Positions 6,254 through 32,840 of a DNA stretch of 64,000 nucleotides are shown here, piece by piece. The DNA comes from Mesostigma viride (taxonomy: Eukaryota > Streptophyta > Mesostigmatophyceae > Mesostigmatales > Mesostigmataceae), in NCBI GenBank assembly GCA_009746045.1, contig RPFO01000076.1, positions 3,420,420-3,484,419 of the forward strand, read 5' to 3'. The notes beneath the pieces are model-generated. The model had not been told where the DNA came from. It worked only from the letters and a program-made list of their open reading frames with translations, and made no database searches. A program made the position numbers and the translations under genes. Position 1 is the stretch's first letter; each line of letters begins with the position of its first letter.

Positions 6254-8104
6254 ATGGAGGGTGTCACTGGCACCTCCAGCGGCTCTGGGGGGCAGGCCCC
6301 CTCCAGTCGCACCAAGGACAAGGCCTTGGCTGGGCTGGGTGAGCCTCAGGGTCCCACCCTGGCGGGGCAGCAGCCGGCTAGGCTGGAAGGCGATCTGGAA
6401 GGTCGGGACTTCATCACCATGGGTGATGAGCCTGTGTGGCGGGCCATTCAGGCTGCCACAGCCTCCTTCCGCGGGCTGGCTGACAGGAGTCAGCAGCTGC
6501 ACATCGCGGAGGCGGGCAGCCTGGTGTGTGCGATTATCACGCACTTACTGGGCTTGCCCAACCTCCACGTGGACACACGTAGGGTGTGTGACGACTTGCT
6601 GCCTGCCCTGCAGGCCCTCCTCTCAGGGAGGAGGGTGCAGGGTGACAGGCTTCGCCTGGTGCGACGCCTGGAGCTCCTGCACAATGCCATCATGACAGGG
6701 GCGGGTAGGTGGTTGCCTACCTGGCTGCATCATGATTTTACTAACCCTACGGACGATGACGTGTCTCTCTCTCCCACCTTCCATGACTGGGAGGAGGCCC
6801 GCAGCAGGAGGCGGGAAGTCACACATACTCACACCCCCACCCAGCCCACCCCTATGTTGCCTATCCATCCTACGCAGCCCATGCCTGCCCCTCCTGCTCA
6901 GCTCACTCAAGTAGCACCTCCCTCTCAGCATGTCTCTCCTGTGAATGCTGCAGCAGCAACCCCATCTTCTCCCTCACCCCCTGCATCCCCCTCCAGGTGG
7001 CCCACATACAATGAAAACCGTCCTGTGGATAGGATCAATGTCAGGGGGTTGCCTGAGGGGCATACTAGGGAGCAGGGGAATCATGTACTTCTCTCTCTCC
7101 AGCTGGCTAGGGAGGAACTGAATGTCAAGAATTGGTTTGGATCCCTCATGCAGGGGGATTTTTACCATCAGTCCTCCTCTCAGATTCAGAATCTCATCCT
7201 TGTCTTCCAGCGTAGGTATCCCAGGTGGCAGGACACCCAGGCTAGGGCAGTCTGGGAGGCCTTCATGAAGGAGCTAACTGACCTCCTCTCCACCCCCTCA
7301 TCTGTGGACATGTATGGGGCATTCAGGTGGGTAGAGGAATACAGGGTCACCTCCGTAGACTATGTGGCTGAGACCAAGAAATATGAGCTAGCCATCAAAG
7401 CCCGTCCTGATGTCCAGCAGCTAGATCACAATTTCTTGCTGCATGCATTCCTGGAGAAACTCAAACTTGACAAAAACACCTACGCTATGCTTGCAACAGG
7501 AATGGCAAAGTACTGGGAGGACATGAAGGAGGCATTGGATTATATCAAGCTGGCCCTGGCCCCACTCAGCCAGGGGGCCATGGGCACCTCTGTAAAGAGG
7601 GTCAGGGGGGAGGATAGGGAGGAGGAGGATAGGGAGAGGGAAAACAGGAGCAAGAGGCCTGTCACTATGGCAGAGGTAAAGTCCCTGCTGGGACAGATGT
7701 TTAAGGGCAAGGGCAAGGGCAAGGGCAAGGGCAAGGGCAGGGGCTGGGGCAAGGGCAAGGGTAAGGGGCAGTCTCCCTCTAAGGGGGGCAGCTCCAGCAA
7801 CAACAACAACAACAACAACAACAACAACAACAACAACAACAACAACAACAACAACAACAACAACAACAACAACAACAACAACAACAACAACAACAACAAC
7901 AACAACAACAACAACAACAACAACAACAACAACAACAACAACAACAACAACAACAACAACAACAACAACAACAACAACAACAACAACAACAACAACAACA
8001 ACAACAACAACAACAACAACAACAAAAACAAAAACAATAACAACAACAAGAAGCAGGACAAGGAGGACAAGTCTTCTCAGCGGTGCACCCGCTGTGGCAT
8101 ATGA
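6254..8104 (+). CDS. Element A gag with poly-Asn tract
   Basis: This is a 616-residue ORF from ATG 6254. The first 230 residues are mixed, then a Pro/Thr-rich linker. Residues about 260-440 form an alpha-helical gag-like core (WPTYNENRPVDRINVRGLPE; FHDW; ALDYIKLALAPLSQ). A Lys/Gly block (GKGKGKGKGKG) coded by GGCAAG repeats follows, then about 80 consecutive Asn, and the frame ends on CTRCG, the first half of a Cys motif. The remaining Cys/His residues continue in the next frame. It is expected to form the virus-like particle shell. The start choice is only the first ATG, which lies seven bases after the partial LTR. Confidence 0.65.
   Translation: MEGVTGTSSGSGGQAPSSRTKDKALAGLGEPQGPTLAGQQPARLEGDLEGRDFITMGDEPVWRAIQAATASFRGLADRSQQLHIAEAGSLVCAIITHLLGLPNLHVDTRRVCDDLLPALQALLSGRRVQGDRLRLVRRLELLHNAIMTGAGRWLPTWLHHDFTNPTDDDVSLSPTFHDWEEARSRRREVTHTHTPTQPTPMLPIHPTQPMPAPPAQLTQVAPPSQHVSPVNAAAATPSSPSPPASPSRWPTYNENRPVDRINVRGLPEGHTREQGNHVLLSLQLAREELNVKNWFGSLMQGDFYHQSSSQIQNLILVFQRRYPRWQDTQARAVWEAFMKELTDLLSTPSSVDMYGAFRWVEEYRVTSVDYVAETKKYELAIKARPDVQQLDHNFLLHAFLEKLKLDKNTYAMLATGMAKYWEDMKEALDYIKLALAPLSQGAMGTSVKRVRGEDREEEDRERENRSKRPVTMAEVKSLLGQMFKGKGKGKGKGKGRGWGKGKGKGQSPSKGGSSSNNNNNNNNNNNNNNNNNNNNNNNNNNNNNNNNNNNNNNNNNNNNNNNNNNNNNNNNNNNNNNNNNNNNNNNNNNNKNKNNNNNKKQDKEDKSSQRCTRCGI
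7797..8037 (+). repeat. (AAC)n poly-asparagine microsatellite
   Basis: About 240 bp of essentially pure AAC codes about 80 Asn within gag. The antisense frames read poly-Leu, poly-Cys and poly-Val, which explains several long spurious ORFs here. Confidence 0.95.
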
Positions 8105-9552
8105 GGTACCACCTGCGGCCTACCTGCCACAAGAACGAGGACGAGCTGGGGCATTTGGACGTCCTGTGCCACAAGTGCCACGGGCCGCCCCACGGTGACC
8201 CCAAGGACTGCAAGCGGCCTCCTTACGGCAAGAAGTGTGAGTCTCCCTCTCATGCTGGCTTGAGTGTGCCTGCTTCACCCCTTTCATCTGCATGCCCCAC
8301 TGTCAGAGCAGTGAGCAGTTCTGGAAAGGTGCTACAGCTGGTTTCAGAAGATTATGTCTCTAAACCAACCTTCACATCTATGGTTCCCAAGGTGTGCAGA
8401 GTGTCCCCCTCAGAGGATGCTCATATCAGTATACAGGAGCTTGCTTTGCAGTTGCACTTCCTTTATGGGCATGAAGTGAGTGCAGAGGTGGTGGCAGCAG
8501 CAATAGGGGGGGCAGCACTCAGACGTGCTTGCCAGGTGGTCAGATCCCACTGCCAGCATTGTCAGTTCAATGCACCCAACCCCCCTAAGGGGCATGTAGC
8601 TACCCCACCTAAGTGCAAGGGCAGGGTGGTAGGAGATGTCTTTCATATAAAAGGACAATCTTACTTGGCATGGTCAAGGTACACAACCATTGAACCATTA
8701 CCTGGAATGGACAAGACACAGTTGCTCAGGGCTCTCTTGATTGCTCAGGCCAGGTACTACCCTGTGGAGGCATTGTTACTGGATCAACAGTTCACGTGTC
8801 TTGCCAATGAACCAGGGTGTGAGGCTATTGATCTGGCAGGGCTAGAAGATCATGAGAGGCAAGGCATCATTGAAAGGGCCATCAGGTCCATTAAAACCCT
8901 TGTAGCCAAGGAGGATGGCAATCTGCTGGCTGACAGTGGGTCATATGCTGACAGAGCTCTGTGGTCCACCAGGCTGTGCCAAGTCCTCAACAGGAGGCCA
9001 CTCATGAAAACCCCACAAGGGGTGATCATTACACCAGATGGATTGCATGCAGGCATTTATCCACCTGAGGTACTAGCCCTCTACGATGCACAGCGAGCAC
9101 ATACAGCTAGCAGGTTAGCTGTCAAGGATGCAAAGCATCCACATCCCACCTTCAGAGAAGGGGATCAGGTCCTATTCTACAAGGAGTTGGGACTAGGCAA
9201 GGTGGGTACCTGGCATGGGCCAGCCACCATCCTAAAGTTTAACACCACTGGCAGGATAGTGTTGGTTAAACACAATGACACGGGTAAGATTCACAGGTGT
9301 TCACCTCACAGGATGAAATTGTATTTTCCAACTGTGTCAGACGTGGCAGAGGAGGAAGAGCTGTTGGCCGACAGCCCTGTACAGTTACCTGGCATCCCAG
9401 CGTTGCCCAGTGAGTGGTTGTTTGGAACACCCACTGGTGAGTGTGAGAGCCACAACCACTGTGACACCCAGGTCACCCTTGATGATTGCAGGCAGTCACT
9501 GCAGGCCTGGCCCCCTGCAGCAGAGGGTCAAATTGGCAAAACTGTCAGGTGA
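8083..9552 (+). CDS. Element A zinc-finger plus integrase
   Basis: A Cys/His-rich stretch (residues 15-50, including CHKC) precedes a DDE integrase. The HHCC finger is H125, H130, C157 and C160. Core acids are D185 (GDVFHIKG), D234 (LLLDQQF) and E264 (RQGIIERAI), with 29 residues between the last two; D-35-E is the usual retroviral/Ty3 spacing. A C-terminal SH3-like module (GDQVLFYKELGLGKVGTWHG) resembles GPY/F-type DNA-binding tails. It would insert the cDNA into the genome. It is separated from gag by a frame change at about 8090 and is followed, not preceded, by protease. Confidence 0.75.
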   Translation: MHPLWHMRYHLRPTCHKNEDELGHLDVLCHKCHGPPHGDPKDCKRPPYGKKCESPSHAGLSVPASPLSSACPTVRAVSSSGKVLQLVSEDYVSKPTFTSMVPKVCRVSPSEDAHISIQELALQLHFLYGHEVSAEVVAAAIGGAALRRACQVVRSHCQHCQFNAPNPPKGHVATPPKCKGRVVGDVFHIKGQSYLAWSRYTTIEPLPGMDKTQLLRALLIAQARYYPVEALLLDQQFTCLANEPGCEAIDLAGLEDHERQGIIERAIRSIKTLVAKEDGNLLADSGSYADRALWSTRLCQVLNRRPLMKTPQGVIITPDGLHAGIYPPEVLALYDAQRAHTASRLAVKDAKHPHPTFREGDQVLFYKELGLGKVGTWHGPATILKFNTTGRIVLVKHNDTGKIHRCSPHRMKLYFPTVSDVAEEEELLADSPVQLPGIPALPSEWLFGTPTGECESHNHCDTQVTLDDCRQSLQAWPPAAEGQIGKTVR

Positions 9553-32474: not shown

Positions 32475-32494
32475 CGGGATTTTTATGAATACAA

Positions 32495-32840
32495 GTTAAA
32501 GCCCGACCGGCTCAGCTATGGCGGTCGGTCACGTTGAGCTTGGGATAAGGTGAACACAGAGAACTGCTGTCGGAGCTGGCCAACCACTGGTTTATGTCTT
32601 AGCCAGCAAAGCCTATCCGGTTAGCCGTAACCGTGGGACAAGCTAGCTGTCCGTACCGACCCGGATAAGGCCCCGGACTGGGGCCTAGGTGGCGCCGGCC
32701 CTAGGCGCCGCCCTTAGACCGGTCGACCGCATCGGACCGCCGGATTATAGCCGGCGGCTTAGCGGACGCTATAGCGGAAGGCGTGCGGACGGACATGGGG
32801 AACTCAGAGCCAGATCCTAGGGCTCTAGAGTTACTCAACT
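32495..32840 (-). repeat. Right 346-bp direct repeat (5' LTR) of element C
   Basis: It is nearly identical to 26686-27031 (for example, a two-base TA insertion near 32770). The high identity suggests a fairly recent insertion. It is followed by the AGGGCA duplication at 32841-32846. Confidence 0.9.

Follow-up and report, generated by a model that had tools for sequence, protein, structure and literature searches.

Three long terminal repeat (LTR) retrotransposons, called here elements A, B and C, lie in a 64,000-nucleotide stretch of the genome of the alga Mesostigma viride (contig RPFO01000076.1, positions 3,420,420 to 3,484,419; this whole stretch is hereafter the window). They form one lineage with the polyprotein order GAG-(zinc knuckles)-integrase (INT)-protease (PR)-reverse transcriptase (RT)-RNase H (RH), in which RT and RNase H are of the copia type. 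The window is part of a 440 Mb genome, and all of the families compared below come from that genome.

Integrase precedes protease in the three elements

The positions of the domains were determined by tblastn between the elements within the window. In element A (plus strand), INT was found at 8425-9279, PR at 9614-10027, RT at 10104-11138 and RH at 11093-11743, and the same succession was observed in element C (minus strand), with INT at 30804-29917, PR at 29431-29123, RT at 29053-28004 and RH at 28048-27425. Element B (minus strand) carries INT at 15149-14263 and PR at 13941-13642 and then, within the window, ~36 residues from the beginning of the RT region, without the RT core or RH. A first-pass annotation of this DNA, made from the letters alone, had placed integrase upstream of a protease-like domain and RT-RH last in all three elements; the former was borne out for each of them, and the latter is shown by A and C only, since B retains just the start of RT. 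The pairwise identities of about 30-48% agree with the little close similarity noted at that time, and A, B and C are therefore three distinct families.

The same order was then read in unbroken frames elsewhere in the genome. L035, a copy of a fourth family (D; protein P0002; 71 genomic matches, with the 1249-aa open frame reported in 13 rows), holds INT-PR-RT-RH within one frame of 1249 aa, in which the motifs start at residues 128 (HHCC), 188 (GDVMHL), 242 (LDQQF), 270 (GLIDR), 387 (SH3-like motif), 572 (DTM region), 950 (HGDD) and 1226 (ADALTK). The A-family copy L036 has zinc knuckle-INT-PR-RT-RH in a single frame of 1609 aa running from inside gag through RNase H, with the zinc knuckle at 374, HHCC at 497, GDVFHI at 556, DQQF at 610, GIIER at 637, GPATI at 755, DTQ at 928, HGDD at 1298 and ADALTK at 1573; its relative L037 (~77% identical DNA) shows an identical domain order in 1280 aa. 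Since these other genomic copies have the order in unbroken frames, frame patching and chimerism do not account for it. An unbroken frame of this kind is seen in two families, represented by L035 and L036, and the proposal that the order is ancestral is supported for the families read, all of them within this one genome.

Assignment of the integrase, protease, RT and RNase H domains

The integrase was recognised by its architecture, an HHCC zinc domain, a DDE core and an SH3-like tail. In C it occupies 29695..31773 (minus strand) together with a double zinc knuckle and has the spacing D-D-30-D, as seen from the open reading frame (ORF), profile and fold. In A, the end of the zinc knuckle and the integrase (D-D-30-E, with a GPATI tail) lie at 8083..9552 on the plus strand, by ORF, profile and tblastn, and in B the zinc and catalytic domains (GAIER) were placed by profile at 14466..15374 on the minus strand. 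The third catalytic position holds Glu in A and B and Asp in C and D. When the INT profile was compared with PDB, 8 of the 8 matches at E ≤ 10 were integrases (best 6.5e-4), and the INT model gave a best Foldseek match of 7.6e-11 that covered the zinc, catalytic and SH3-like domains, in line with the SH3-like tail anticipated in the first pass. The integrase call was therefore upheld by profile and fold but not by Pfam, whose rve match stayed below significance (E 0.062 for B, 0.032 for an A copy); Pfam is too insensitive to act as the judge of INT and PR in these elements.

The protease-like domain lies downstream of the integrase in each element. In A it is found at 9410..10072 (plus strand; motif DTQAQVSII), where it aligned with C and the Pfam model gag-asp_proteas scored E 0.11, below the cut-off. 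In B it shares one open frame, 13477..14526 (minus strand), with the integrase tail and the start of RT, and its motif is DTNSQVSII. In C it opens ORF2 (27410..29728, minus strand; 772 aa open, frame 27413-29728), with DTQASVSII at 29419-29393 ahead of RT (HGDD) and RNase H (ADALTK). The motif is thus DTQ in C and A, DTN in B and DTM in P0002, and the canonical pattern D[TS]G was found in none of them. A retropepsin fold is predicted for this domain and is supported by the structural model, although that model is of low confidence: all 50 of the Foldseek matches listed (from 594 at E ≤ 10) were retropepsin-like, and the best, at 9.7e-4, was the sole one below 0.001 among those 50. Sequence profiles were of little help. 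The PR profile obtained two unrelated matches only among PDB sequences (E 0.35 and 0.61), the PR-RT-RH profile obtained Rab7 only (E ≥ 0.49), and hhalign of four PR rows against a canonical DTG protease (1311-2504) aligned the DTx motif over 31 columns at a probability of 5%, which carries no weight.

These weak protease signals could also be read as ordinary copia elements with protease before integrase, the DTQ region being an unrelated linker. For such a reading speak an LDTGAVG that precedes integrase in C, the non-canonical character of DTQ and the silence or weakness of Pfam over the PR regions. We consider it highly improbable, however, as only about 80 residues separate the zinc knuckle from HHCC in A (our own count), too few for a retropepsin, the 1249-aa ORF2 of D has neither DTG nor DSG, and it is the DTQ region that was modelled as a retropepsin. 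A Pfam scan of gag and gag-INT pieces brought up no protease, and the place suggested for the protease in the first pass, after integrase, agrees with both the predicted fold and this search.

The RT was assigned with more ease, and its copia-like nature was confirmed by Pfam. The RT of A (10113..11180, plus strand; HGDD) matched RVT_2 at 3.8e-10 and its copy L036 at 4.1e-9, both above the cut-off, while P0004 reached 6.9e-6, below it. These RT matches in A and L036 were to RVT_2, with no RVT_1 match. In C, P0002 and the ORF2 of D no Pfam match was found, yet all of them align to A across RT-RH. The RNase H of A (11120..11788, plus strand; ADALTK) is 39% identical to that of C, and it drew no RNase H match from Pfam.

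Upstream of these domains, the gag of A, which includes a long run of Asn and the beginning of a zinc knuckle, extends over 6254..8104 (plus strand) and is 92% identical to L036 at the nucleotide level over 1622 columns. The Asn run is encoded by an array of 9-bp units (31 overlapping copies) at 7714-8112. The gag of B (15574..16695, minus strand) contains a CCHC motif (Pfam zf-CCHC E 0.0052, below the cut-off); a 283-aa ORF without a Pfam match is present at 16864-17715 on the same strand, shortly before it. The capsid part of the C gag was placed at 31774..32474 (minus strand), and its frame is broken in the window copy.

Reading frames differ between families

The families arrange the same domains in different frames. 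In A, as described for L036, one frame extends from inside gag through RNase H. In D, gag with two zinc knuckles is in the same frame as INT-PR-RT-RH, with one TGA between them in L035. In C, ORF1 comprises GAG-INT and is open in 3 of 26 copies, where it measures 927 aa from the first Met, and ORF2 comprises PR-RT-RH and was open in all of the at least 58 genomic matches scored (58/58). The two ORFs are offset by -1 at eight consecutive C residues (29753..29760, minus strand), and this C8 run was found in 26 of 26 copies.

Whether ribosomes would shift frame at this run is an even bet. The sequence C CCC CCT fits the general pattern of -1 slippery sites, and the C8 run persists in every one of the 26 copies while ORF2 is open in 58/58 scored matches. 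Equal weight has to be given to the alternative that the -1 step from INT to PR arose by mutation in the master copy, or reflects systematic miscalling of bases, and is not a programmed shift. In its favour, the C copies break at many other sites as well, the transcript-derived protein P0005 reads straight across the INT/PR junction, and no stable RNA structure that might stimulate a shift was found downstream of C8 (z +0.83).

Copies, LTR ends and signs of recent activity

Element C is bounded by a 5′ LTR at 32494..32840, identified by comparison of the LTR pair, and a 3′ LTR (AGTTGAG...TTTAACT) at 26685..27031, both on the minus strand; they are 98.0% identical over 349 columns and are flanked by GCCCT. 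The ends first proposed for C were accordingly right to about one base. That of element A, set at 12480, was placed too early, as its 3′ LTR (AGTTAG...AACT, plus strand) starts at 12858 and runs to about 13313; it matches the 5′ LTR of another copy as far as 13287, and the last ~26 bases with the end at ~13313 were read by eye. The 231 bp just upstream of the A start codon (6017-6247) are not the LTR belonging to A; they are a fragment of a C-type LTR on the minus strand, opposite to A, with 99.1% and 97.9% identity to the two LTRs of C. A stretch with the ends TGTTACGTCC...GGGACGTAACA (5443-6018, by eye) may be a solo LTR of another family and may cut this fragment at 6017.

The C family appears in many closely similar copies. 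ORF2 was 100% identical across at least 58 scored matches, the window copy included, and five copies are more than 99.7% identical internally. Mismatches between the two LTRs numbered 0 in L011 and L014, 1 in L009 and L010 and 3 in the window C. Duplications of 5 bp flank the window C (GCCCT), L011, L014, D and the A-type copy A3; a target duplication is absent from L009 and L010 (2 of the 5 C copies with both ends read) and from a further A-type case, E. In the copy A2, 4 of 5 flanking bases match, by eye and inside a tandem repeat. LTR ends of the form AGTT...AACT were observed in A2, A3, C, D and E.

Five A-type copies had been taken as paired end stretches, and three of these were without an LTR pair; one of the three became case E after a longer upstream stretch was taken. 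For E the LTRs and the primer pair described below were read, and what we say of domain order covers the other families. The RT identities of A2, A3 and E to A are 96, 82 and 89%, which makes them branches of the A family, and so the five primer cases below amount to three branches.

Protein relatives outside the assembly, with the top 7995 shared-word candidates scored per search, were limited to P0001-P0003 from Mesostigma and P0004 and P0005 from a Prorocentrum lima set; viral and prokaryotic contigs yielded no relatives. P0001 was listed as 100% identical to the C protein over 81% of the query, with a few residues differing by eye, and P0005 as 99% identical to C. Because of this near identity we took the Prorocentrum lima set as contaminated, apparently with transcripts of Mesostigma retrotransposons, and horizontal transfer into that organism was set aside on this ground, a very recent transfer being the alternative.

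The primer-binding site is complementary to the 3′ UTR of the same element

In C, the 12 bases directly after the 5′ LTR (TGTATTCATAAA, 32482..32493, minus strand), that is, the primer-binding site, are perfectly complementary to 12 bases shortly downstream of the RNase H stop in the 3′ untranslated region (UTR; TTTATGAATACA, 27372..27383, minus strand), and the latter lie in a predicted hairpin loop. Such complementarity of the 9-12 bases after the 5′ LTR to the element's own 3′ UTR was observed in 5 of 5 families or subfamilies, with a different sequence in each. It begins at the first base after the LTR and measures 23 nt in the D copy L035, 11 nt in A2, 9 nt in A3 and 12 nt in C. The longest pairing of every primer site was with the 3′ UTR of its own element (A2 11, A3 9, C 12, D 23), and the other combinations gave 8 or fewer. 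When the 3′ UTRs were shuffled with dinucleotides preserved, the observed length was reached in 2 (A2), 13 (A3), 2 (C) and 0 (D) of 2000 shuffles each, where the D value refers to the 23 nt of L035, the common D match being 10 nt. The window copy of A carries the 3′ UTR site TTTTCAGTCCA (12728..12738, plus strand), which by sequence match is the complement of the primer site of A2; the site sequence of the D family is CGCTTCTTTCATCTGTGAATACA.

Case E provided a prediction made beforehand. Its 3′ UTR reads TTTTTAGTCCA, so that TGGACTAAAAA was expected as its primer site, and this 11-nt sequence was found directly behind the 5′ LTR; within the 970 bases that precede the 3′ LTR, the partner lies at base 844. 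Between E and A2, both sides of one pair have changed. Among copies, the LTR/primer-site pattern was matched by 21 of 26 C copies (not by L013, L016, L018, L023 and L030), and in D the primer site was present in 9 of 11 5′ stretches (not in L064 and L066) and its partner in 10 of 10 3′ stretches.

The D family contains one further trace. In eight D copies the primer site, TGTATTCACA, continues with ACAGTCAACATTACC (a close variant in one), whereas in L035 alone TGTATTCACA continues with GATGAAAGAAGCG, which is the complement of the next 3′ UTR bases. This footprint comprises 12 or 13 extra bases, the last G being shared, after which the common sequence resumes; together with the primer site it occupies 1182-1204 of L035. 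Retroviral plus-strand synthesis copies part of its primer, and the extra stretch in L035 is, as expected, what primer use would leave, to judge from its letters.

It seems that the RNA primer needed for copying is supplied by each family itself. Two other explanations were weighed. The domain order could be real and the 5′-3′ pairing could serve only to circularise the genomic RNA, as in yeast elements, with a host tRNA as the primer. RNA cyclization is named for Ty1 in a published abstract, and the sites of A2, A3 and E begin with TGG; those of C and D begin with TGT, though, the complementarity starts exactly at the LTR edge in 5 of 5 cases, where a primer must end, and the L035 footprint is the trace that primer copying would be expected to leave. 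We regard circularisation alone as unlikely. Rather less likely still is priming by a host small RNA, of which the 3′ UTR site would be a captured or coincidental copy: from family to family the primer site and its 3′ UTR partner vary in step, and a single invariant host RNA would not give such a pattern. No tRNA gene was found in the four 3′ UTRs searched. A complement inside the LTR, of the kind used by Tf1, reached an anchored length of only 3-5 nt in A2, A3, C, D and E.

Proposed replication of the lineage

A lineage with the order GAG-(zinc knuckles)-INT-PR-RT-RH that copies through RNA and primes itself from its own 3′ UTR is, as a whole, the account that we hold to be quite probable. 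Translation would pass the frame change in C and the TGA in D by some means, particles would form, and the protease between integrase and RT would release the products by cleavage with its DT[QNM] site. The 3′ UTR site, which ends in CCA or ACA, is complementary in sequence to the 9-12 bases that follow directly on the 5′ LTR; the RNA would be cut after CCA or ACA, and the cut RNA would prime minus-strand DNA and be extended into U5, with which the one footprint copy is consistent. A genomic RNA from which the primer is cut loses its 3′ end, and we speculate that a second packaged RNA would therefore be needed as the template. The DNA would finally be integrated by the DDE or DDD enzyme; the 5-bp duplications and matching LTR pairs are those seen in the copies above, and the cycle linking them to an RNA intermediate is a suggestion.

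Comparison with known elements

Superfamilies of LTR retrotransposons are defined by domain order. A CCHC gag and 5-bp target duplications are copia traits, and the LTRs of Ty1/copia elements end in TG...CA. The present elements resemble Ty1/copia in the RVT_2-type RT, the RNase H directly after RT, the integrase before RT, the CCHC gag and the 5-bp duplications; they differ from it in having PR after INT, AGTT...AACT ends, no DTG, a GPY/F-like integrase tail and, in C and D, primer sites that do not begin with TGG. They work like copia-type elements but fail two copia hallmarks that were tested, the order and the LTR ends. The green algal element Osser, named in the first pass as one to be checked for the same order, is listed among Ty1/copia with the order GAG-PROT-INT-RT-RH in the consulted part of a plant-element survey (PMC6317226).

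The RT of gypsy-type elements is RVT_1, and their order is GAG-PR-RT-RH-INT in Ty3/gypsy, whereas INT stands before PR and RT in A, C and D. A precedent for a moved integrase is the Gmr1 clade, described in the available text as a Ty3/gypsy lineage with INT shifted to the copia position (PMC2774666); its order is nevertheless PR-INT-RT-RH with a gypsy-type RT, in contrast to INT before PR and an RVT_2 RT here.

For priming, cyclisation of Ty1 RNA involves CYC5-CYC3 pairing. Long-range 5′-3′ RNA pairing is common to Ty1/Ty3, as far as the sources seen describe it, and to our elements; in ours, by difference, the 5′ side of the pairing coincides with the primer site, from its first base. Tf1 is stated, in the part of the source seen, to prime itself with the 11 bases that begin its RNA (PMC7175516). 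Tf1/sushi elements and the present ones are alike in that the RNA of the element itself supplies the complement to the primer site (here a putative primer), and they differ in that the partner lies here in the 3′ UTR, the LTR having no complement above 5 nt. According to the excerpt available, fungal GalEa copia elements have no classical primer-binding site and a conserved hairpin instead (PMC5445492), a short palindromic site at the primer position for which no complementary U5 repeat was detected, unlike the distant partner seen here.

The order INT-PR-RT was not found by a literature text search that covered few subscription papers, and neither it nor a 3′ UTR primer was met in literature searched at the level of titles and abstract starts. 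The plant survey mentioned above, with 13,863 elements, recognised two orders and always removed elements with an unexpected one as likely mispredicted, and its main text does not name Mesostigma (PMC6317226). In the available text of two M. viride genome papers (PMC6947507, PMC7027972), LTR elements are treated as a class and the words copia and gypsy are not used. Since the present order recurs in several families, in long open frames and near-identical copies, the removal of odd-order elements can hide real lineages.

We lean, with some reserve, towards a superfamily-level lineage, so far from one basal streptophyte alga, that would combine a copia-type RT, a Gag-side GPY/F-like integrase, a non-DTG retropepsin and a primer encoded in the 3′ UTR without host tRNA, primer and site co-evolving and the primer being sometimes copied into the insertion. 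The non-DTG family motif, the AGTT...AACT LTR ends, the differing frame arrangements and the self-complementary primer site all go beyond the first-pass annotation, and the protease motif and primer site may matter more than the domain order. A primer from the element's own 3′ region would, if true, join Tf1 self-priming as a second way to do without a tRNA, and the order raises the question of how Gag-Pol is processed when integrase is made before protease. Mesostigma is kept in culture.

Other elements in the window

Further elements were seen around A, B and C. A Gypsy-type gag with CCHC and a canonical DTGAS protease (Pfam 1.2e-9) lies at 1308-4235 (minus strand), and an RVT_1 fragment, probably of a non-LTR element, at 33778-35014 (minus strand; 8.8e-12 for 34544-35014). 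By eye, an ORF at 37111-38202 (minus strand) resembles an endonuclease part, and a 159-aa ORF at 42583-43062 (minus strand) resembles the start of a Harbinger-type transposase. Long tandem arrays with periods of ~40 bp and 36 bp occupy 56037-57661 and 62792-63621, respectively.

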